Assembly: GCA_029248745.1 (NCBI GenBank)
Contig: JAQWIT010000004.1
Location: forward strand, 84,792 to 148,791
Reading direction: 5' to 3'
Origin: Gammaproteobacteria bacterium
Lineage (GTDB): Bacteria > Pseudomonadota > Gammaproteobacteria > Nitrosococcales > Methylophagaceae
Length of the DNA stretch: 64,000 bases
This document shows positions 8,885 through 29,242 of the stretch, in pieces. How positions within the stretch are numbered: the stretch's first letter is position 1; each line of letters starts with the position of its first letter. Both the position numbers and the translations under genes were made by a program. A model generated the notes under the pieces. It saw only the letters and a list, made by a program, of their open reading frames with translations, was not told the DNA's origin and ran no database searches.

Positions 8885-9922
8885 ATGCGTGCTTTAATCA
8901 TTAAGCTGACCTCAATGGGTGATTTGATGCATGCCTTACCGGCATTAACCGATGCCGCAGCAGCCATACCGGGTATCGAATTTGATTGGGTCGTCGATAA
9001 AAACTTTTCAGCAGTGCCTTTGTGGCATCCTGCGGTTAAAAACGTGATTACAACGGCTCACCGTCAATGGAAAAAAAGCTTTATCCGGACTTGGCGAACG
9101 GGTGTTTTCAAAGACTTTAAACAACAGCTTAACCAAGGCGACTACGATCTCGTTATCGACTTACAAAACAATATGAAAAGCGCGACAGTTTCTTGGTTTT
9201 ATGACGGTGAGGTCCATGGTCTAGATAAAGGCTATTGCCGTGAAAAATTTGCCTATAAGGTTTATAAGCACCGTTATCAAGTACCAGAAAAACAGCATGC
9301 GATAGATCGTATCCGACAAATTTTATCGCAAGCACTGAATTATTCAATGCCGGACACTAAACCAGATTATGGCGCTGATTTTTCACAGTATGATTTACCA
9401 ACATTAGACTTCGAGCTACCCGATAAGTATTTAATTTTTGTACACAATGCCAGTTGGGTCAGTAAATTATGGCCATTACCATCATGGAAGCAATTGGTGA
9501 CAATAGCGGCTGAGCAGGGCTACAGCATCTTATTACCCTGTGGTAATGATGAAGAGTATCAGCGCGCAGAGGATATTGCCGCAGTCAGTGAACAGGCCTA
9601 TGCCTTACCTCGTCTATCACTCAATGAAGTTGCTGCATTGGCTCATAAAGCCAAAGGCGCAGTATGTAGTGATACTGGCCTAGCGCATCTCGGCGCAGTG
9701 TCAGGACTGCCAGCCCAAACCATTTATGGCTCAACAGCGACGGCCTTAATCGGGACTGTTGGCAATCATCAGCACCATATCGTCAGTGATTTTGATTGTG
9801 CACCTTGTTATAAAAGAACCTGCCCGAAACCTGAAGCTATCAACGGTGAACCCGTTTGCATGGCAGACATCAGTGCTGAAACGGTTTGGCATAGACTTGA
9901 AGCTGTTTTACAAGCACAATAA
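8885..9922 (+). CDS. waaC: LPS heptosyltransferase I
   Basis: This GT9 enzyme adds the first L-glycero-D-manno-heptose to Kdo2-lipid A at the inner membrane. The 345-residue protein starts with the GT9 signature (IIKLTSMGDLMHALPAL) and has the sugar-nucleotide site near the C-terminus (CSDTGLAHLGAVSGLPAQTIYG). The acceptor-side residues in the first Rossmann domain look normal. It is followed by hldE, which makes its ADP-heptose donor precursor. Compared with the second GT9 protein (28205-29242), the N-terminal TSMGDLMH favours heptosyltransferase I. Confidence 0.92.
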   Translation: MRALIIKLTSMGDLMHALPALTDAAAAIPGIEFDWVVDKNFSAVPLWHPAVKNVITTAHRQWKKSFIRTWRTGVFKDFKQQLNQGDYDLVIDLQNNMKSATVSWFYDGEVHGLDKGYCREKFAYKVYKHRYQVPEKQHAIDRIRQILSQALNYSMPDTKPDYGADFSQYDLPTLDFELPDKYLIFVHNASWVSKLWPLPSWKQLVTIAAEQGYSILLPCGNDEEYQRAEDIAAVSEQAYALPRLSLNEVAALAHKAKGAVCSDTGLAHLGAVSGLPAQTIYGSTATALIGTVGNHQHHIVSDFDCAPCYKRTCPKPEAINGEPVCMADISAETVWHRLEAVLQAQ

Positions 9923-14154: not shown

Positions 14155-16383
14155 TTGAACCCGCGTACCCGATACTACTTGCGTTCAGCAAAACATATTT
14201 CCCAATCGATTATTAGTTCCGGATTCTGGGCCAAACATTCGCCGAAGATTCAAGCCGGTGTGTCGGTCGAAAATGACTTCTTTGGTATTAATATCGCGCC
14301 GGGTGCTGACCCCATGGTCGACGACTTTATTATTGAGCGTCTACAAGAACTAGGTTTACAGCACGTCCGCATGAATTTTACCTACGATTCATTGGATGGT
14401 TATGCTGAAAGGTTATTAAAGCGCGTGCTAGACGCTAACTTTAAAGTATTGCTTGATCTGATACCACCCTTTGAAGATGCCAAAACGTTTACGATGGCAG
14501 CACAACAGCGTTGGATTGATTTCCTCAATACTATCGCAGATAAATACGGCGACAAAGTTGCGTGTATTGAGATTGGCTCTACACCTAACCGTGGCCGTTG
14601 GTCAGGGTTTGAGCCAATGGATTATTTAATTGCTTGGCGTATTGCCAACGAACAATTAAAAACAAGAGGTATTGTATTAGCCGGCCCTAATGTCTCCGAC
14701 TTTGAGCCATTGTGTAGCATTCAATTACTGAGTGAGATGCAATTACAGGGACATGCCCCCGATATTTACACCAATAACCTGTTTGTTGAGCGGGTGATCC
14801 AACCGGAAGCATTCGACCATCGTGCATTGGGTAAAGCCATGACTAGTATCATGAAATTGAATTTGGTTAAAAAAGCGCGGGTGATGAAAGCAATTGGCCA
14901 TGAGTATGGTGTTGATAACATCATTTGTACGTATAAATGTTGGTCTAGTAAACGTTTACGTCGTTGGTCGGTAACACCAGAACAAAAAAAATCGGATTAT
15001 TTAATCCGGTATTTGGTGATTGCTGCATCGACAGGCGCATTGGGTCAGGTTTATTGGGGACCGTTAATCTGCAGCAGAGATGGCCTGATCAATGATGGTT
15101 CAACCGGCTACCCGGTCATTGATAATGTGACATTTTATAAGCAAATCCGAGGTGATTTATCGGGTTTTGAAATTCGAGAAGCCTTTTATGCTTATGCGAA
15201 TATTATTAAACTTTTGGCGGGAAGCACGTGTGTTCAAGCGGTCAATGCAGATAAAGGCTTGCACCACTTTATTTTTGAAACCAAAGAGCAAAAACAACTG
15301 CATATTGTATGGACACAAGATCGGGGCTGCGTTAATGCGGAGCAGTTGTATAGCCGAGAGCACCTGGAGCAAGCTGAGATAATGAATGCACTAGGCGAAG
15401 CAGTGACAGAATCGGTATTGAGCTTCACCGAACGTCCACTATTCTTACGATTTGAGCAGCCCACATCATTACAACAGAATGAGAAACAACTTGCCGACAT
15501 CCAACCAAGACCTGAAAAAGTAAATTTTGGGATAACAGGTGAGATACGGTATCTACCATGGACCGAAGGAAAGTGGCACGGAGCGGTTGCTGTTAAGCCA
15601 GGTGAAGATGCAAAGGAAAAAGCACAAGCGCTATTGCCAGAAAAACTATTGAGTGCGACGCAGTTATCTCTCCATCGAGATCAACGTAATAAAGTGTGGA
15701 GTATTCAACATCCGTTGGCTTCAAACGATACCGTTGTAGTGAAAGAAAACCGGGCACGTGGAATTAAAAAAATCACATACCGGTTTAAAGCCAGCAAGGG
15801 CCAACGTCACTGGGATAATGCATGGGAAATGTTACGTCGGGGTGTGAAAAGCCCGATGCCAGTCGCGTATTACGAACAAACTGAAAATACTGGCATTACC
15901 CACAATTACTATGTCTGTGAATACGTCGATGCTGCTTTTTCTGTCAGACAAGCTTTCACAGCCTTTGGTGACGGACAAGACAGCTTTGGTGGTTTTAGCA
16001 AAGAGCAAATTATTAAGGGAGTCGCAGATTATGCCTGCAATATGCATGATGAGAAAATCATCCACCATGATTTAACCGGTGGAAATTTGTTAGTCACGAC
16101 AGAAAATGATGAGATTAATATTACGGCGATTGATATTGGCCGAGCGACGATATACATCAAACAAAATGTCACAGAGCAGCAGCGTTTACTCGATCTGATG
16201 CGCTGCTGCTATAAGCTCAACTGGCCAAATCGTGAATTATTCATGGAATATTATTTTGAAGCTTACGGCCGCCAATTTGCACAACGCTGGAAAACATCGC
16301 TTAGCTATTATGATTGGAAATTAACAACAAAGAAAAAGCTTAAACGCCTTTTGAAAGGAAAGTGGAAAAAAGCAAAAAACTAA
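14155..16383 (+). CDS. Glycosidase-like barrel fused to a Kdo-kinase-like domain (LPS locus)
   Basis: The 742-residue protein has two parts. About residues 35-435 resemble a clan-A (cellulase-like) TIM barrel. It has an acid candidate E139 in CIEIGSTPN and a possible nucleophile E250 in AIGHEYG. About residues 455-715 are a Kdo/heptose-kinase-like fold with catalytic loop HHDLTGGNLL (D639, N644) and metal-site AIDIGR (D660). The very basic tail (KKKLKRLLKGKWKKAKN) could help membrane contact. The start is a TTG, because an in-frame stop at 14107-14109 leaves no upstream ATG or GTG. It overlaps the aldo/keto reductase gene tail-to-tail by 4 bp. A role in core sugar phosphorylation or trimming is inference. 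Confidence 0.65.
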   Translation: MNPRTRYYLRSAKHISQSIISSGFWAKHSPKIQAGVSVENDFFGINIAPGADPMVDDFIIERLQELGLQHVRMNFTYDSLDGYAERLLKRVLDANFKVLLDLIPPFEDAKTFTMAAQQRWIDFLNTIADKYGDKVACIEIGSTPNRGRWSGFEPMDYLIAWRIANEQLKTRGIVLAGPNVSDFEPLCSIQLLSEMQLQGHAPDIYTNNLFVERVIQPEAFDHRALGKAMTSIMKLNLVKKARVMKAIGHEYGVDNIICTYKCWSSKRLRRWSVTPEQKKSDYLIRYLVIAASTGALGQVYWGPLICSRDGLINDGSTGYPVIDNVTFYKQIRGDLSGFEIREAFYAYANIIKLLAGSTCVQAVNADKGLHHFIFETKEQKQLHIVWTQDRGCVNAEQLYSREHLEQAEIMNALGEAVTESVLSFTERPLFLRFEQPTSLQQNEKQLADIQPRPEKVNFGITGEIRYLPWTEGKWHGAVAVKPGEDAKEKAQALLPEKLLSATQLSLHRDQRNKVWSIQHPLASNDTVVVKENRARGIKKITYRFKASKGQRHWDNAWEMLRRGVKSPMPVAYYEQTENTGITHNYYVCEYVDAAFSVRQAFTAFGDGQDSFGGFSKEQIIKGVADYACNMHDEKIIHHDLTGGNLLVTTENDEINITAIDIGRATIYIKQNVTEQQRLLDLMRCCYKLNWPNRELFMEYYFEAYGRQFAQRWKTSLSYYDWKLTTKKKLKRLLKGKWKKAKN

Positions 16384-18385: not shown

Positions 18386-18949
18386 TTACTGAGCGGAGAT
18401 CGCTTGATCTAGAGCCTCACAAAGCCAATGACCGATAATGATGTGGCCTTCCTGAACACGTGCTGTTTCCTGCGATGGCACTTGAATACAACTATCTGCT
18501 TGAGTCAACAATTGGCCTCCGGATTGTCCTGTAAAAGCGCAGGTCCAACACCCAGCAGCTTTAGCGACTTTAAAACCGTTGATGACGTTATCACTGTTTC
18601 CTGAAGTGGAAAGTCCAATTGCAATATCTCCAGGTTTGGCTAATGCTTCGATCTGGCGATCGAAAATGGTGCTAAAGTCATAGTCATTACCATGTGCCGT
18701 TAGGATAGAGGTATCTGTTGTTAACGCAATAGCAGCATAGGGTTGCCGATGTTCTTTATAGCGGACGACAAACTCTGCTGCCAAATGCTGCGCATCTGAA
18801 GCACTGCCACCATTACCAAAAAATAAGACTTTATTGCCGTTGGCTAATGCACTGGCAACATGTTTAATAAGCGTGTCAATTTGAGGCTCTAGGGAAAATA
18901 AGCCGTCGACCATTGCTTGGTGGCGAATAACAGTAGCTTTAAATGACAC
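18386..18949 (-). CDS. gmhA: Sedoheptulose-7-phosphate isomerase
   Basis: GmhA makes D-glycero-D-manno-heptose 7-phosphate, the first step of LPS heptose synthesis, feeding hldE. The 187-residue SIS-domain protein has FFGNGGSASDAQHLAAEFVVRY, the Ser-rich phosphate site GLSTSGNSDNV, and QEGHIIIGHWLCE near the C-terminus with the catalytic/zinc residues. It is divergent from the triple-kinase gene. The 109-bp AT-rich gap (18950-19058) probably holds promoters for both directions. DiaA-type SIS proteins are similar, but the LPS context supports GmhA. Confidence 0.88.
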   Translation of the reverse strand: MSFKATVIRHQAMVDGLFSLEPQIDTLIKHVASALANGNKVLFFGNGGSASDAQHLAAEFVVRYKEHRQPYAAIALTTDTSILTAHGNDYDFSTIFDRQIEALAKPGDIAIGLSTSGNSDNVINGFKVAKAAGCWTCAFTGQSGGQLLTQADSCIQVPSQETARVQEGHIIIGHWLCEALDQAISAQ

Positions 18950-19058: not shown

Positions 19059-21296
19059 ATGGCGTTATCCGATATTTACCTTAGGTTAGAACTGGGCAAA
19101 CACTGGAGTGGGCAGGATGTTTTTACAACAGTAGAACAGCTTGAAGGTGCGGTCTTTCGCCATAAAGAAGGCAGAAGAACACTACGTTTTCAACTAGCAG
19201 ATAAAAGTTATTTCTTAAAATATCACAAGGGCATTGGTTGGCTGGAAATCATTAAAAATATTTTACAGTTACGAGCGCCAATTATCAGTGCTAAAAATGA
19301 ATGGCAAGCAGTTAAGTTTCTAGAAAAACATGGCATCGAAACCATGACGTTAGCAGGCTATGGAGAACGTGGTTTAAACCCAGCGAACAAGCAATCATTT
19401 GTTATTACCGACGATTTAAACGATACCATGGACTTAGAGCGCTTGGGAGAACAGTGGCATCAAAGGCCACCGACCTTTGCGACAAAAAAAGCTCTAATCG
19501 AAAAATTAGCCACGATCAGCAAAGACATGCATGAAAATGGCATGAACCACCGCGATTTTTATTTGGTTCATTTCTTATTGGACAAACGCTTTGCCGAACA
19601 TAATACGTTTACACCTGAGACACCGCTACATCTTATTGATTTGCATCGCGCGTTAATCAATGAAGGCAAACCCGTTAAAGAACGCTGGTTGGTGAAAGAT
19701 ATTGGCAGCCTCTATTTTTCAGCGATGGATGTACCGATAACACAACGTGATTTACTACGCTTTATCAAGATCTATACAGGTAAATCATTAAGAGAGGCAT
19801 TGTCACCTCGGAATTTATTCTGGTCTAAGGTCAGACATCGCGCATTGACATTGCGTAACTCTGATAATGCCGTTGTGATTGAAAGTTTGAACCCAATTAG
19901 AAATTTTTTAAAAGGTAAAAAATTGCAACTGCCATTCACAATGGAATTGGCTGGACAATCTTATACTTGTAATAAAGTACTACGTTTATTACCAAAAAAG
20001 CGGTTAGTGGTTGAAGCGCAATCTGAACAACATCATGCGTTGATTAAGCTATTTTCAATGCAGCAAAAAGGCCGGCGAGAAATAGATCGAGAATATGATG
20101 GCCACCGTATTGCCAAACAAGCCGGTGTTAACGTACCGAAAATGTTATTTGCAGCCGGTAACCAGCAAGGGTGCCTAAGTATTGCCTATCAATATGTTAA
20201 TAAGGCTAAAACATTGTTATCAGTGTCTGTAGCCGATAGACAGGCTCAACTTCCGGCGCTATTTGAGATGATTGCCAAATTACATATTCACGGTGCTTAT
20301 CAAAATGATATTCATCTCGACAATTTTTTGTTGGCTGAAGGCAAGTTGTATCTAATCGATCTAGGTTCAATAAAAGCCCAACAAGTAGGTCAAGGCTTAA
20401 GCCCGAAGAAGAGTTTACAAAACTTGGCTCATCTCGTGTCTGAGTTCACACCTGAAGAGCAGGCAGAATTAACCCCTTATATTGAACAATACTATCGCCA
20501 ACGCCAAAGTGTGTATAACGACCATGAGAAAAAGTTTTTTGCTAAGTACTGCCAAAAAGCGTGGGATAGAAGAAAACGAAATTACCTTAAAAAGCAATTT
20601 AGAAACTGTTCTATGACACGGTATCAAGCTAATTTTTCTCAGCAGTCAGCATTTCGTAGTGAGTTTTTAAATGGTGATACAGATGCATTCACAAAAAATA
20701 TTGAACAGATTATGTCCGACGGACAATCTCTAAAACAAGGAAATTCATCAACAGTTGTTAAGGTAGAGATAGAGGGTCAGCAGCTTGTTATAAAACGTTA
20801 CAATATGAAAAGTACAAGCCATTTTTTACGCCGTTGTCTACGGCCGAGTCGTGCTGCAGTGTCGTGGCGAAATGCCAACCTATTAGAATTTATCGGCTTG
20901 CCAACCCCAAGGCCTTTGGGGTTCATTGAACAAAGGCAATTTGGTTTACGTCATCAAGCTTATTTTATTACTGAATATACTCAAGCAGAAGAATTGTCAT
21001 CTGTCTATGAACAACGTGAGCCGATAGAGACTGAAGTAGCACAAATCAACGCGATGTTTACGATATTAGAACATGAACAAATAAGTCATGGTGACCTAAA
21101 AGCCAGTAATTTTTTACTAGATGAGTCGGGTCAGATTTCATTAATTGATCTCGACGCGATGAATGGCGCGCACTATTGCCGCCATACTTTTAACAAAGCC
21201 TTTTCAGAGGATAAGAACCGGTTTCTACAGAATTGGCAGGGCAGCGAATGGACAAAGCAACTCAGTTTTGTCTCAAGACAGGGCTTATCATCATGA
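19059..21296 (+). CDS. Triple-kinase fusion: WaaP-like heptose kinase plus two WapQ-like kinase domains
   Basis: The 745-residue protein carries three kinase-fold domains. Domain 1 (about 1-265) is WaaP-like, with GMNHRDFYLVHFLL (H164-R165-D166), K54 and D194 in LIDLHR. WaaP phosphorylates heptose I of the core. Domain 2 (about 275-490) has NDIHLDNFLL (D417, N422) and LIDLGS (D434). Domain 3 (about 545-735) has ISHGDLKASNFLL (D679, N684), K579 and LIDLDA (D697). The second and third together are about as long as Pseudomonas WapQ, so this looks like WaaP fused to a WapQ-like protein. All three catalytic Asp residues are present. It overlaps waaG by ATGA and heads a plus-strand operon. Confidence 0.8.
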   Translation: MALSDIYLRLELGKHWSGQDVFTTVEQLEGAVFRHKEGRRTLRFQLADKSYFLKYHKGIGWLEIIKNILQLRAPIISAKNEWQAVKFLEKHGIETMTLAGYGERGLNPANKQSFVITDDLNDTMDLERLGEQWHQRPPTFATKKALIEKLATISKDMHENGMNHRDFYLVHFLLDKRFAEHNTFTPETPLHLIDLHRALINEGKPVKERWLVKDIGSLYFSAMDVPITQRDLLRFIKIYTGKSLREALSPRNLFWSKVRHRALTLRNSDNAVVIESLNPIRNFLKGKKLQLPFTMELAGQSYTCNKVLRLLPKKRLVVEAQSEQHHALIKLFSMQQKGRREIDREYDGHRIAKQAGVNVPKMLFAAGNQQGCLSIAYQYVNKAKTLLSVSVADRQAQLPALFEMIAKLHIHGAYQNDIHLDNFLLAEGKLYLIDLGSIKAQQVGQGLSPKKSLQNLAHLVSEFTPEEQAELTPYIEQYYRQRQSVYNDHEKKFFAKYCQKAWDRRKRNYLKKQFRNCSMTRYQANFSQQSAFRSEFLNGDTDAFTKNIEQIMSDGQSLKQGNSSTVVKVEIEGQQLVIKRYNMKSTSHFLRRCLRPSRAAVSWRNANLLEFIGLPTPRPLGFIEQRQFGLRHQAYFITEYTQAEELSSVYEQREPIETEVAQINAMFTILEHEQISHGDLKASNFLLDESGQISLIDLDAMNGAHYCRHTFNKAFSEDKNRFLQNWQGSEWTKQLSFVSRQGLSS

Positions 21297-22441
21297 AGCT
21301 GGCTGTGTGTCTATATAAATTGTTTCCTTTTGGCGGTTTAGCAAGAGACTGTGTTCGTATTTTAAGCCTGTGTTATGCCAAAGGGGCTGAGATTGATGTC
21401 TTTGTGATGCAATGTGAAGGTGAAATACCAGAAGGTTTTAACGTCGAAGTGATTAAACCGAAAGGCCTTACCAACCACAGTAAAGTAGCCAATTACGTAG
21501 CAGAAATCAAGCCGCGTTTAGCTAAAGGTAACTATGACCTAGTGATTGGTTTCAATAAAATGCCGGGTCTTGATCTCTACTATGCTGCCGATCCGTGTTA
21601 CATCGATCGCGTGAAAAAACAGTGCAATTATCCTGTTATGCAATTTAGTGGTCGAGTGAAATATTATCGTCAAAATGAAAAAGCCGTTTTTGGACCTGAC
21701 AGCCAAACGGTTGGTTTGATGATTTCTGATATAGAACGGGATAAGTTTAAGCAACATTACAATACGCCTGATAATCGTTTGGTGATGTTACCTCCGGGTA
21801 TTGATCCGAATAGAAAGCGCAGTGATGATTGGCAAACCCGCCGTCAACAATTCAGAACACAATTTCAATTAAGCGATGAAGACATAGTAATATTGATGGT
21901 AGGTAGTGGCTTTAAACGTAAAGGTGTTGACAGGGTCATTGTTGGTCTGGCCTCTTTATCATCTATATTGCGTGAAAAAACTAAGTTATTTGTCTTAGGC
22001 GAAGATACTATCCCAGCTTTTGAAAGTCAGGCAAGACAACTGGGTGTAGCAGACAATGTCACTTTTTTTGGTGGCCGTAGTGATGTACCAGAATTTCTAG
22101 TTGGAACAGATTTATTTTTACACCCTGCAAGGAAAGAAAACACTGGAACGGTGATACTCGAAGCCATAGTAGCTGGCTTACCGGCGTTTGTATCGGGTGC
22201 ATGTGGTTACGCTGGACATATTATTAAGTCTGACACGGGCTTAGTATCAGCCGAGCCTTTTGAACAACAAGCCTTTAATCACCAATTGGCCAGTATGTTA
22301 GATAAAGGTAAATTGCAGCAATGGTCCAAGAAGGCATTGCATTATGCTGAATCAGAAGATTTGTATAGCATGCCACAGAAAGTGGCTGCCATTATTGAGA
22401 CAATGGTAGAAGAAAAACGAAAAGCAGGAGACAACCATTAA
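21293..22441 (+). CDS. waaG: LPS core glucosyltransferase I-like GT4 enzyme
   Basis: This GT4 family enzyme would add a hexose to heptose II of the core at the cytoplasmic membrane. The 382-residue form starts at the ATG that overlaps the kinase stop (ATGA) and reads MKLAVCLYKLFPFGGLARD, the typical WaaG N-terminus. Further motifs are VIGFNKMPGLDLYYAADPC and the donor-site LLHPARKENTGTVILEA-like stretch near residue 280. An upstream in-frame extension would lie inside the kinase and is not credible. galE begins inside the last codons of this gene. Confidence 0.9.
   Translation: MKLAVCLYKLFPFGGLARDCVRILSLCYAKGAEIDVFVMQCEGEIPEGFNVEVIKPKGLTNHSKVANYVAEIKPRLAKGNYDLVIGFNKMPGLDLYYAADPCYIDRVKKQCNYPVMQFSGRVKYYRQNEKAVFGPDSQTVGLMISDIERDKFKQHYNTPDNRLVMLPPGIDPNRKRSDDWQTRRQQFRTQFQLSDEDIVILMVGSGFKRKGVDRVIVGLASLSSILREKTKLFVLGEDTIPAFESQARQLGVADNVTFFGGRSDVPEFLVGTDLFLHPARKENTGTVILEAIVAGLPAFVSGACGYAGHIIKSDTGLVSAEPFEQQAFNHQLASMLDKGKLQQWSKKALHYAESEDLYSMPQKVAAIIETMVEEKRKAGDNH
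22427..22439 (+). promoter_or_regulatory. Ribosome site and ATT start codon of galE
   Basis: GGAG at 22427-22430 (within AGGAG) is followed after six bases by ATT at 22437-22439. No ATG, GTG or TTG occurs in this frame between the stop at 22407-22409 and the GalE glycine motif. The first TTG (22500) lies after that motif, so it would cut off the NAD site. The ATT therefore appears to be the start. Confidence 0.65.
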
Positions 22442-24068: not shown

Positions 24069-25793
24069 TTAAACCTTTGAGACTAAAATATCCTCCATAA
24101 CAAGGTATTCTAAATCCGAGCCAAAAAACATATTCAAAGCATCAGTAGGGCTACAGACCATAGGCTCACCACGACGGTTTAACGAGGTGTTCAAAACGAC
24201 GCCATTACCATTTAATCTTTCCATTTCTTGGAGTAATTGGTAATAACGTGGGTTGGTCGCTTCCGTGACAATTTGAGCCCGTGCAGTTCCATCTTCATGA
24301 ACAACTTCAGGAATGCGTGATTTCCATTCCTCAGCGACATCAAAAGTGAATGTCATATAGGGACTTGGGTGATCTGTTTGTAAAATACTGGGGGCAACTG
24401 TATCCAACATACTTGGACAAAAGGGACGCCAGCGCTCGCGGTATTTAATTTGAGCATTAATGCGGTCAGCAACGCCAGAATGGTTAGGGCTACCGAGAAT
24501 ACTACGGTTACCCAATGCGCGTGGACCGAATTCCATTCTACCTTGGAACCAAGAAACAGGATTACCATGGTTAAGTATTTCTGCGGTTTGTCTACAAACA
24601 TCATCTAGCTTGGTCCAGTTAACCTCCTGCTCATGAGCATGACAGGCAGAGATACATTCTTCGGTTGTGTAAGAAGGACCAAGGTAGACATGCTCCATTT
24701 TTTCAACAGCAATACCGGCCATTTGTGAGGCATAGCTAGCGGCACCAATAGCGGTACCCGCATCACTGGCAGCGGGTTGTACGAACAACTCTTTCACGCC
24801 ATCCATCGCGATAATGCGCTGATTTAGCTTCACATTTAGTGCAACACCACCTGCAAAACAGACTTTGCCTGTTTCACGAATGATATCGCCAAGGTGATAA
24901 TCGATAAGATGTAATGCCGTTTTTTCTAATAAATCCTGAATACTGGCAGCATAATCGATGTAAGGATCGTCAATTTCATCCCCATCCCGCATTGGGCCGA
25001 GCCATTCCAACAGCTTTTTACTGAAAAAATAACCTTTACCGTCTTTTTTGTAACGTCGTGTGCCTAAAGTATTGACGAGTTCAGTATTAACTTTAAATTC
25101 ACCATCGCCAAATTCGATCAATTGTGAGAAGTCGAATCGGGTCGGATCACCGTAAGGTGCCATACCCATCACTTTGAACTCACCGTCTAACATTTCAAAG
25201 CCGAGGAATTCGGTCAAAGCACCGTACATACCTCCAAGAGAATCAGGGTCATAAAATTCTTTGATTTTATGGATTTGGCCATCTTCACCATAACCCAAAA
25301 AGGTTGTGGCATACTCACCTTTACCGTCAATACCAATAATAGCTGTTTTTTCTTTAAAGCCACTTAAGTGATAAGCACTACTTGCATGCGCTAAGTGATG
25401 TTCAACAGGTACAAATTTGACGCGATCAGCACCAATGCCGAGATCATCGAGTAATTTCATCACGGCATCGTGGTTACGCTTATAACGGCGATTACCATTC
25501 AAGAGCGCGGTCAACCCACGATCTGGTGCATACCAGTAGCGTTTTGCGTAATGCCATCGAGCGGGTGACTTAAGATCTATCTCAGAATACGGAAAAGCAA
25601 CAATATCAATATCTTTTGGCGTGATACCAGCCTCTTTAATGCAGAACTGAGTAGCGTGATAAGCCATCCGACCTTTAGCATGTTTATCCCGCAGAAAGCG
25701 CTCTTCTTCCGCCGCGGCAATGAGTTTTCCATCAATATAAAGTGCTGCCGAAGCATCGTGGTTTACGGCACCTGATAAGCCTAATACGATCAT
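24069..25793 (-). CDS. Carbamoyltransferase (NodU/CmcH family), probably LPS core-modifying
   Basis: The 574-residue protein has a Kae1-like N-terminal domain with NHDASAAL (H12), EERFLRDKHAKGRM, the HHLAHASSAYH metal/ATP motif (H132, H136) and GIDGKGEY. Its C-terminal YrdC-like part has the family motif GRMEFGPRALGNRSIL. Such enzymes transfer carbamoyl from carbamoyl phosphate through carbamoyl-AMP to a sugar hydroxyl. In Pseudomonas aeruginosa a homologue in the core locus carbamoylates heptose II, and the surrounding kinases make the same role likely here. It is the last gene of the minus-strand waaF operon and meets the YrbL-like gene tail-to-tail with 2 bp between. Confidence 0.85.
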   Translation of the reverse strand: MIVLGLSGAVNHDASAALYIDGKLIAAAEEERFLRDKHAKGRMAYHATQFCIKEAGITPKDIDIVAFPYSEIDLKSPARWHYAKRYWYAPDRGLTALLNGNRRYKRNHDAVMKLLDDLGIGADRVKFVPVEHHLAHASSAYHLSGFKEKTAIIGIDGKGEYATTFLGYGEDGQIHKIKEFYDPDSLGGMYGALTEFLGFEMLDGEFKVMGMAPYGDPTRFDFSQLIEFGDGEFKVNTELVNTLGTRRYKKDGKGYFFSKKLLEWLGPMRDGDEIDDPYIDYAASIQDLLEKTALHLIDYHLGDIIRETGKVCFAGGVALNVKLNQRIIAMDGVKELFVQPAASDAGTAIGAASYASQMAGIAVEKMEHVYLGPSYTTEECISACHAHEQEVNWTKLDDVCRQTAEILNHGNPVSWFQGRMEFGPRALGNRSILGSPNHSGVADRINAQIKYRERWRPFCPSMLDTVAPSILQTDHPSPYMTFTFDVAEEWKSRIPEVVHEDGTARAQIVTEATNPRYYQLLQEMERLNGNGVVLNTSLNRRGEPMVCSPTDALNMFFGSDLEYLVMEDILVSKV

Positions 25794-25863: not shown

Positions 25864-26640
25864 CTATTTTGATTTGTTTAACACACGGTCTTGAATTTGA
25901 TACCAAAGCTTTTTCGACTTTGGCGAGAGTTTTGTTTCATTCACATAAGCTTTAAAGAAGGTCATTTGTTCTTTAACTGTCCAATCCAAAGTATGGCGTC
26001 GTAAAGTGCCAAGATCTCTTAAGATCGCAGTTCGTTTTAATAGTCGACGTTTTGCTTTCTCTAAGTCAATAATTCTGATATCCCAGTCATTATTAACTTT
26101 TTTAGCAAAAATATGTTTGGGGTAAAGGCTATTATGTTGGATATTATGTTGATGCATTCGGCTAAGCACTCTCGCCGTGGCAATAAGTAAAGACCGTTTA
26201 GTTTTCCAATTATCTATAGTGCCCAAGTCTGAACTTGGAAGTAATGTATCCAGTGGAAAATAACCTGCTAAATCTTGTGTTGCAATAATGGCCTGTAGAT
26301 TACCATTGTATGTTCTTGTCCCAAAATAGACGAGCTCCAATGTAGGGATATGGTAATGGTGAAAACGTTTGATGTTTTCATATTCTTTTTGGAACGTTGC
26401 GATACCTGAAAGAGGGTGCCTCCATGTACGACTTGTATGGTTTTCTTGACGTTTGATAAATATATAACTGGGTTCATCTTTCCCGTTTTTCAGTGGAATT
26501 TTGACGACACCGCTCCAGCCACCACGTCGGATATTGGGTTCTTCAAACCAATCGGCTTGTAACTGCCATAAAGTGTTAAAAGAGTATAGTGAGTTTTGTT
26601 TTAGGGCCAACGGCCAATTATTTCCAAAGAACTCATACAT
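25864..26640 (-). CDS. InaA-like LPS kinase family protein
   Basis: The 258-residue protein has the InaA/Kdo-kinase-like fold: RRGGWSGVVKI near the start, IFIKRQENH with K63, EYENIKRFHHYHIPTLELVYFG, and a C-lobe with IQHNSLYPKHIFAK and IRIIDLEKAKRRL (D192). The place of the catalytic Asp is Ser (S171) and that of the metal Asn is His (H176). Related InaA proteins often deviate here, so it could still act in a modified way. It lies 2 bp after the GT-C-like gene and 70 bp before the carbamoyltransferase in the waaF operon. Confidence 0.75.
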   Translation of the reverse strand: MYEFFGNNWPLALKQNSLYSFNTLWQLQADWFEEPNIRRGGWSGVVKIPLKNGKDEPSYIFIKRQENHTSRTWRHPLSGIATFQKEYENIKRFHHYHIPTLELVYFGTRTYNGNLQAIIATQDLAGYFPLDTLLPSSDLGTIDNWKTKRSLLIATARVLSRMHQHNIQHNSLYPKHIFAKKVNNDWDIRIIDLEKAKRRLLKRTAILRDLGTLRRHTLDWTVKEQMTFFKAYVNETKLSPKSKKLWYQIQDRVLNKSK

Positions 26641-28204: not shown

Positions 28205-29242
28205 TTATCGATGTTCTGTATTTTGTAAAAGATAAAGGGATGTTAGCACATCAACACTAGTTATACCTTGCATACATTTATGATGTTGTTTGGGGCATGT
28301 TCTCTGAAAGCACGGGCCACACTCGACATCAATTTGGAGGAAGTGTGCGTTCTGAGATAGCGGTGGCGTAAAGGTAGGCGAAGTAGGGCCATAAATAACA
28401 ATCAATGGTTTTCGTAAGGCAGAGGTAATATGCATCAAACCTGAGTCATTGGAGATAACAGTATCCGCAGTGTCTAGTAAGTCTATGGCTTCATTTAAAG
28501 CTGTTTGGCCACATAAATTAAATAGCATAGCTTCATCTTTGTTTGATACCAAGTTTTCTATCTTATCAGCGATGGTTTTATCGGCCTCTGATCCTAGAAT
28601 GACAACTTGCCAATTTTGTTCAATCAGAGCAATCGCAACTTCAGCGTAAGATTGTGCAGGCCATTGTTTGGCAGGCCCAAACTCAGCACCAGGGCAAAGA
28701 ATCAGCCTTTTTTGTACTGATTTTAATGGTGATATTTCGAAAGCGCCTGTCTTAGCGATCATTTTAGGGATTGGGCAATCAGGCGCAAGTTGAGATTGCT
28801 CAGAAGGATTTGCCAAGGAAACAAAGCGTTGGACCATCATAGGCAAAGTTTGTTTATCCAGTGTCCGGAGATCATTTAACAGGCCGTAACGAACTTCCCC
28901 TTTCCACCCTGTCCGTTTTGGAATATTGGCAAACCAGGGAATCAAAGCTGATTTCCAAGAATTAGGTAGAACAATAGCTTGGTCATATTGTCTGCTTTGT
29001 AGCTGTTGACCTATAGCACGCCGCATTTTTAGGCCCAGAACACCATGATTAATCGGCATTGGAATGGCTTCATTAACCTCGGGCATGCGATCTAAAAGAG
29101 GTTTCGTCCATGCTAAAGCTAAGACATCAATAATGCAGTCTTTGTGTTTAGCCTTAAGGGCAATAAACAAGGATTGGGCCATAACCATATCGCCAATCCA
29201 AGATGGACCAACGATGAGAACCTTATATGACGCAATGGACAT
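28205..29242 (-). CDS. waaF: LPS heptosyltransferase II
   Basis: This GT9 enzyme adds the second heptose of the LPS core. The 345-residue protein starts KVLIVGPSWIGDMVMAQSLF, the typical WaaF N-terminus (compare TSMGDLMH of WaaC). It has the donor-site segment VISNDSGLMHITSALRKP and the CGPCFQRTCP cysteine cluster near the C-terminus seen in WaaF. It lies 6 bp after the ZIP gene and 5 bp before the GT-C-like gene, in one minus-strand operon that continues to the carbamoyltransferase. Confidence 0.92.
   Translation of the reverse strand: MSIASYKVLIVGPSWIGDMVMAQSLFIALKAKHKDCIIDVLALAWTKPLLDRMPEVNEAIPMPINHGVLGLKMRRAIGQQLQSRQYDQAIVLPNSWKSALIPWFANIPKRTGWKGEVRYGLLNDLRTLDKQTLPMMVQRFVSLANPSEQSQLAPDCPIPKMIAKTGAFEISPLKSVQKRLILCPGAEFGPAKQWPAQSYAEVAIALIEQNWQVVILGSEADKTIADKIENLVSNKDEAMLFNLCGQTALNEAIDLLDTADTVISNDSGLMHITSALRKPLIVIYGPTSPTFTPPLSQNAHFLQIDVECGPCFQRTCPKQHHKCMQGITSVDVLTSLYLLQNTEHR

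Follow-up and report, generated by a model that had tools for sequence, protein, structure and literature searches.

The WaaP kinase of lipopolysaccharide (LPS) synthesis phosphorylates heptose I of the inner core at O-4. To our knowledge, the WaaP proteins in print are single-domain, and we know of no enzyme for the di- and triphosphates of Pseudomonas cores. Inner-core phosphates support the integrity of the outer membrane and are reported, in the accessible text of two sources, to be essential in P. aeruginosa (PMC6147952, PMC8005017). Later core phosphates seem to depend on the phosphorylation of heptose I by WaaP (accessible text of PMC6147952). In Pseudomonas cores, heptose I is phosphorylated at O-2 and O-4 and heptose II at O-6; some cores have di- and triphosphates, whose attachment sites were left unresolved in that work (PMC8005017). 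Table 1 of that source gives the positions that correspond to waaP, wapP, wapQ, a two-kinase gene and a carbamoyltransferase gene as PA5009, PA5008, PA5007, PA5006 and PA5005, respectively. According to the accessible part of PMC8707732, a two-hybrid screen found that PA2576, an EamA-like transporter, is bound by a PA5006 fragment spanning residues 300–493. Neither a fusion of WaaP nor a description of PA5006 as a double kinase was found in the literature searched, which largely excluded subscription journals.

Here, we analyzed a stretch of 64,000 nucleotides (the window) from a bacterium related to Methylophaga, in which a single frame is predicted to encode a chain of three kinases that relatives make from two neighbouring genes. 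The fusion is real, and what it joins are enzymes of known kinds: a WaaP and a two-kinase protein of the PA5006 type. Its chief value lies in presenting the PA5006-type protein as a pair of kinases linked to WaaP, and it offers a single-chain reagent for testing this little-studied protein.

The fused frame and its three kinase domains

The fused gene lies at 19059–21296 on the forward strand and is open over 745 codons without an internal stop. The same single frame is present in 8 of the 29 genomes of the genus, our own genome counted, and the other seven fused proteins are 60–79% identical to the window protein. Because the frame recurs in this way, a sequencing error or a chance open frame is ruled out, and the frame that an earlier note on this DNA had read as a fusion is indeed unbroken.

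Upstream and divergent from the kinase gene is a gmhA-like phosphoheptose isomerase gene (18386–18949, reverse strand; NF010546 190.9 bits, below its cut-off of 276; TIGR00441 177.5, below 209.45). A waaG-like glycosyltransferase gene follows (21293–22441, forward; PF00534 95.7 bits), named from its position and glycosyltransferase family; no WaaG model passed for it, and no NCBIfam model matched at 1e-20. Both names depend on sub-threshold or general profile matches. The ATG of the waaG-like gene overlaps the kinase stop codon in an ATGA at 21293–21296, which suggests that the two genes are translationally coupled, and galE and a YrbL-like kinase gene come next. Within the window we also find waaC for heptosyltransferase I (8885–9922, forward; TIGR02193 276.8 bits, cut-off 185.3), waaF for heptosyltransferase II (28205–29242, reverse; TIGR02195 446.4 bits, cut-off 134.6), a WapO-like carbamoyltransferase gene (24069–25793, reverse; PF16861 227.2 and PF02543 168.1 bits), a separate WapQ/InaA-like gene in which the Asp of the HRD motif is replaced (HNS; 25864–26640, reverse; NF007383 82.7 bits, below the cut-off of 235) and, near the kinase gene, hldE. 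With waaC, hldE, waaF, the carbamoyltransferase and the WapQ/InaA-like gene nearby, the locus is an LPS core cluster of the heptose type. Downstream of the kinase gene it is 2.8 kb to the carbamoyltransferase gene and 4.6 kb to the WapQ gene; both are on the opposite strand, and neither is adjacent to the kinase gene as in Pseudomonas. A scan for promoters and terminators was uninformative (one promoter-like site, with 6.5 expected by chance), and Rfam gave no match within the window.

Domain 1 (residues 1–267; 19059–19859, forward) belongs to the WaaP/RfaP family of heptose-I kinases, as the earlier note had proposed. Taken alone, it scores 327.3 bits with the RfaP equivalog NF011703 (cut-off 170) and matches the structure of P. 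aeruginosa WaaP, 6dfl, by sequence with an E-value of 1.9e-67. A structure comparison of the model over residues 4–267 gives a Z-score of 28.0 to 6dfl, with an rmsd of 2.0 Å over 241 residues. Mutations that stop growth have been made in P. aeruginosa WaaP at K51, H161, D163, Y165, H168, D188 and R191, H168A being scored as 'no growth', while mutation of R162 within the HRD had a mild effect (accessible text of PMC6147952). In the alignment the equivalents are all present in domain 1, as K54, H164, D166, Y168, H171, D194 and R197, plus R165. The motif thus reads HRDxYxxH, with His171 at the place where domains 2 and 3 carry Asn and where P. aeruginosa WaaP likewise has His. The paired aspartates listed in the earlier note (D166/D194, D417/D434 and D679/D697) all stand, but the Asn that it gave to every domain is absent from domain 1. 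At five ACP-contact positions, taken from the accessible text of PMC6147952, domain 1 is basic at four (R230, R234, K237 and R245) and has Q229 at the fifth, where P. aeruginosa WaaP has Arg (R221); from these conserved residues, domain 1 would probably bind an acyl-ACP cofactor in its C-terminal helices. Domain 1 thus resembles WaaP/RfaP (NF011703; 6dfl) in family score, full-domain fold, HRDxYxxH, D194, R197 and most of the compared ACP-contact Arg and Lys residues, and differs in forming the first third of a 745-residue protein. Judged by profile, alignment and predicted-structure match, it would phosphorylate heptose I as WaaP does.

Domain 2 (residues 293–512; 19935–20594, forward) and domain 3 (residues 520–742; 20616–21284, forward) are predicted to have kinase folds, with K330, E345, D417, N422 and D434 in the former and G561, K579, H677-G-D679, N684 and D697 in the latter. 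Each of the three domains alone exceeds the PF06293 cut-off of 21.3 bits, at 148.1 for domain 1, a marginal 23.5 for domain 2 and 46.2 for domain 3. An AlphaFold2 model of the fused protein, built from a 58-row alignment, has a mean pLDDT of 94.2 and a pTM of 0.78, the placement of domain 1 relative to domains 2 and 3 being uncertain. When the model was compared with known structures, domain 2 matched Bud32 of Kae1-Bud32 (3en9, residues 310–500, Z 15.4) and APH(3')-Ia (4gkh, residues 296–507, Z 13.9), and domain 3 matched PRPK (6wqx, residues 523–745, Z 18.1) as well as Rio kinases. The earlier proposal of three kinase domains in one 745-residue protein is therefore borne out, both by profile matches and by separate structural matches in which each domain is predicted to fold as a kinase (Z 28.0, 15.4 and 18.1). 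When the free-standing two-kinase protein from Azomonas agilis was modelled, the pLDDT reached 95.4 and the pTM 0.90, and residues 1–230 and 251–473 of this protein each match PRPK (Z 17.9 and 17.4). The pTM of this model suggests that domains 2 and 3 form one rigid unit.

Over their full joint length, domains 2 and 3 align with a single free-standing protein that contains two kinases and is mostly 461–534 residues long; among the matches listed, longer frames with the two-kinase region are either fused frames or long upstream frames. A genome scan with the two-kinase alignment, which is not a census, returned at least 80 loci. By sequence, domains 2 and 3 correspond to a single conserved protein with two kinases, which has a gene of its own in most of the relatives seen. 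Among the matches listed, Pseudomonadaceae loci carry waaP first, then wapP and last the two-kinase gene; an InaA-like wapQ ORF lies in between in the part of the loci where it was read. The two-kinase gene is closely followed by a carbamoyltransferase gene in 32 of the 33 Pseudomonadaceae loci among these matches, the exception being Azomonas locus L099, and in 9 of the 47 loci from elsewhere, so this part of the neighbourhood is not general. We assign domains 2 and 3 to the PA5006 type because locus position and length agree, the PA5006 fragment 300–493 fitting that length; this orthology is drawn from position and length in other Pseudomonadaceae and not from the PAO1 sequence. Two kinase domains, a unit of mostly 461–534 residues, complete catalytic residues and a gene in an LPS core cluster near waaP, wapQ and a carbamoyltransferase gene are all found here. 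The protein at the PA5006 position, a putative LPS kinase of Pseudomonas, is likewise similar to domains 2 and 3 over its whole length, keeps both kinase sites and is encoded in an LPS-core cluster. It is free-standing, however, and other kinase genes separate it from waaP, whereas in the window the two-kinase part is fused directly to WaaP.

Distribution and origin of the fusion

Among the 29 genomes of the genus, eight carry the fused gene, eight carry two adjacent or overlapping genes and 13 have no match. The eight split genomes, together with the Pseudomonadaceae loci, agree with the earlier note in that the fused parts are separate genes in relatives. The fusion linker (residues 268–292; 19860–19934, forward) coincides with the place at which, in split relatives, waaP ends and the second gene starts, and the gap between the two genes in seven split pairs is −38 to +6 bp. 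In a tree of 33 rows, the eight fused rows of the genus group together (100/100); their neighbours are four split rows (87/94 for the pairing), and the other split rows fall outside. Since the fused rows form one clade beside split rows, a single fusion within the genus is the simplest account.

Matches were found in 42 of the 57 genomes of the family; the 26 of these that lie outside the genus all lack an unbroken frame over both parts, and genome G422 has the WaaP part only. The phylum scan gave matches in 23 of 398 genomes, with one match over both parts in our own genome only. In both scans, split and fused genes were told apart from separate matches and listed stops. The named relatives among the matches listed are Methylophaga species and Piscirickettsiaceae MAGs. 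In the class, 52 of 369 genomes match. Of 30 class loci, 28 were scanned for WaaP, the other two being our own genome and G011, and the remaining 22 matching genomes were judged by frame length alone (including G355, with a 676-residue frame). Two of the 28 scanned loci, in genomes G164 (727 residues) and G372 (about 800 residues), encode WaaP together with the two-kinase region in a single frame, within LPS-core clusters of other families. The same fusion, for which the earlier note had suggested a search in related genomes, is thus found both within the genus and elsewhere in the class. Trees keep G164 and G372 apart from the genus clade, and a tree of 23 rows that includes G372 places all three apart, which amounts to three changes. 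A tree that unites G164 and G372 cannot be rejected (p-AU 0.205), and the two sit on long branches, which weakens the case for three independent fusions; the fusion therefore arose at least twice, and perhaps three times. The functional reading proposed below holds without a third origin.

The fused loci listed as L074–L077 and L079 are the same cases as G012, G003, G010, G016 and G011. Two Pseudomonas loci, L121 and L126, with frames of 707 and 697 residues, were also considered as fusions; their upstream parts matched no kinase model, and for that reason they look like long upstream frames. In two other genomes (L048:1–1425 and L050:2943–4373), a GT4-type glycosyltransferase, WaaG-like by position, is fused to WaaP, which occupies residues 220–466 and 214–471 of the respective frames, both cut by the end of the locus. 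The order is reversed in L042:1486–3863 and L045, where the two-kinase gene comes before waaP. In G022 and G018, a 310-residue ORF, presumably a family 2 glycosyltransferase, follows the fused kinase gene on the other strand (L007 and L008:3713–4645, reverse), and in G022 a waaG-like gene comes after it.

Five pairs picked from the eight fused rows gave pN/pS ratios of 0.11–0.15 for domain 1, 0.09–0.19 for domain 2, 0.13–0.32 for domain 3 and 0.14–0.25 for the linker region (residues 262–292), with synonymous sites saturated in several of the pairs. Domain 3 has the highest ratio of the three domains in four of the five pairs (up to 0.32), and at 0.09–0.32 all three domains appear to be under constraint. 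These values bear on whether the waaP stop was lost neutrally, leaving the domains to act independently, an account that is compatible with the domain roles proposed below. The narrow gap in the seven split relatives fits such a loss, as do G400, G402 and G014, where the match reads through with only one or two stops; against it stand the linker-region ratios and the origin of such fusions on two or more occasions. We consider neutral fusion a possible account, though not a probable one.

Proposed role in the heptose core

To these observations of fold, family, conserved catalytic residues, fusion and fusion origin we add a functional reading, to which we give a probability of about 0.72: the protein comprises three tethered LPS inner-core kinases, with domain 1 acting on heptose I and domains 2 and 3 adding further phosphates. 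The gene joins waaP to the gene next downstream, which codes for a two-kinase protein of the PA5006 type. Domain 1 would act first, phosphorylating heptose I of the LPS inner core. Domains 2 and 3, two further small-molecule kinases of active type, would be tethered beside it in one unit and would probably add later inner-core phosphates, at heptose I O-2, at heptose II O-6, or as a second phosphate that yields diphosphates. As the papers found give no activity for PA5006 or its relatives, we infer these substrates from the neighbourhood; because the two-kinase protein has been fused to WaaP at least twice independently, it would seem to be part of WaaP's pathway. Any benefit from tethering we likewise infer: it would fix the ratio of the kinases and keep the domains on the same lipid-A–core at the membrane, and the processive or coordinated transfer that the earlier note suggested could be possible. 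A more far-reaching version would let this one polypeptide supply every kinase required for the three standard inner-core positions, with domain 1 serving O-4 of heptose I and domains 2 and 3 serving O-2 of heptose I and O-6 of heptose II, or the diphosphates there, in which case PA5006-type proteins would make the extra or diphosphate groups of Pseudomonas LPS and WapQ would not be a kinase; this we regard as speculative and rather doubtful.

Within the genus, the kinases occur only alongside heptose-core genes. All 16 kinase-bearing genomes have a waaC match (a 73-residue piece in G005 and two pieces in G018) and gmhA. At the thresholds used, waaC is missing from 10 of the 13 genomes without the kinases, and gmhA from 11. 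For gmhA the threshold was E < 1e-70, at which six weak hits (34–38% identity, frames of 242–246 residues) that are probably another protein were dropped, three of them in genomes without the kinases. Fisher tests give p = 1.4e-5 for waaC and 2.3e-6 for gmhA, values that are inflated by the relatedness of the genomes, some of which are incomplete. Three genomes, G009, G019 and G399, have waaC and no WaaP or two-kinase match. In G009, stretch L187 holds hldE-, waaC- and gmhA-like genes, and the contig ends shortly after gmhA.

Domains 2 and 3 might instead act on Kdo, another core sugar or a protein, and have been fused to WaaP merely as gene neighbours. The best curated model for domain 3 is that of the Kdo kinase KdkA, NF002475, although at 46.4 bits (27.7 for domain 2) both domains fall well below its cut-off of 142, and Bud32, Rio and APH kinases, whose substrates are varied, are among the structural matches. 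Set against this are the fusion to WaaP on at least two occasions and the frequent position of the two-kinase gene beside waaP in core clusters, and we judge a non-heptose substrate to be unlikely.

The inner-core kinase reading takes both domains to be catalytic, and the conservation of their active sites is in agreement with this. Among the matches listed, 80 two-kinase rows plus the window gave 81 rows. K330, D417, N422 and D434 of domain 2 are kept in 80 of these, the remaining row being gapped there, and the position of E345 holds Glu in 78 and Asp in two; K579, D679, N684 and D697 of domain 3 are kept in all 81. Across all nine fused rows (alignment A5), 12 of 12 checked residues are kept. 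In one of 22 diverse rows, the two-kinase protein at L057:1459–2976 (reverse), domain 3 is degenerate (K to R, HGD to HGN) and domain 2 intact, so domain 3 can be lost. This row would suit a role for one of the two domains as a scaffold or regulator, with only the other catalytic, and the binding of the PA5006 fragment 300–493 to PA2576 would fit a binding role for the domain 3 half; the complete K/D/N/D sets nevertheless make such a division of labour quite improbable.

The earlier note had identified the fusion as WaaP plus WapQ. WapQ is excluded because its orthologue is the separate gene at 25864–26640, which is 32% identical (E = 6e-41) to the WapQ-position gene of Azomonas; WapQ (PA5007)/InaA shares its superfamily and gene cluster with the fused kinase. 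In profile comparisons domain 3 is nearest to WapP (PA5008; E = 7.9e-19, against 1.8e-10 for WapQ), domain 2 is nearest to domain 3 (5.4e-13) and WapP (6.2e-12), and both match WapQ less well than WapP. A WapP query of our own genome finds domain 3 as its best match (39.5 bits), making it the nearest relative there, and neither this query nor a PF06293 search found a free-standing WapP in that genome. WapP, however, is a single-domain protein of about 244–257 residues that coexists with the two-kinase gene in Pseudomonadaceae loci, where the profile of domains 2 and 3 scores 446–486 bits end to end with the two-kinase gene and 40–61 bits with wapP, its best stretch lying over domain 3. Although all of these proteins belong to the Kdo/WaaP kinase superfamily, an identity of domains 2 and 3 with WapQ, or with WapP plus WapQ, is thus highly improbable, and they are better described as the PA5006-type two-kinase protein.

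Of 18 WapQ/InaA-like rows, 14 have a YPKH motif that can be read, L099:4228–4977 among them, and each of the 14 carries C, S or A in place of the HRD Asp; with this Asp absent, WapQ may be a pseudokinase. PF06293 matches five places in our own genome: domains 1, 2 and 3, the WapQ-like gene and the C-terminus of another composite kinase, of 742 residues, encoded at 14155–16383 (forward). The Kdo/WaaP kinase of this second protein lies at residues 511–694, and its roughly 500 N-terminal residues matched nothing in Pfam or NCBIfam and had no significant sequence similarity to PDB entries. A 730-residue protein at L135:8456–10648, with a match to the RfaP model at residues 531–679, is similar to it in layout.
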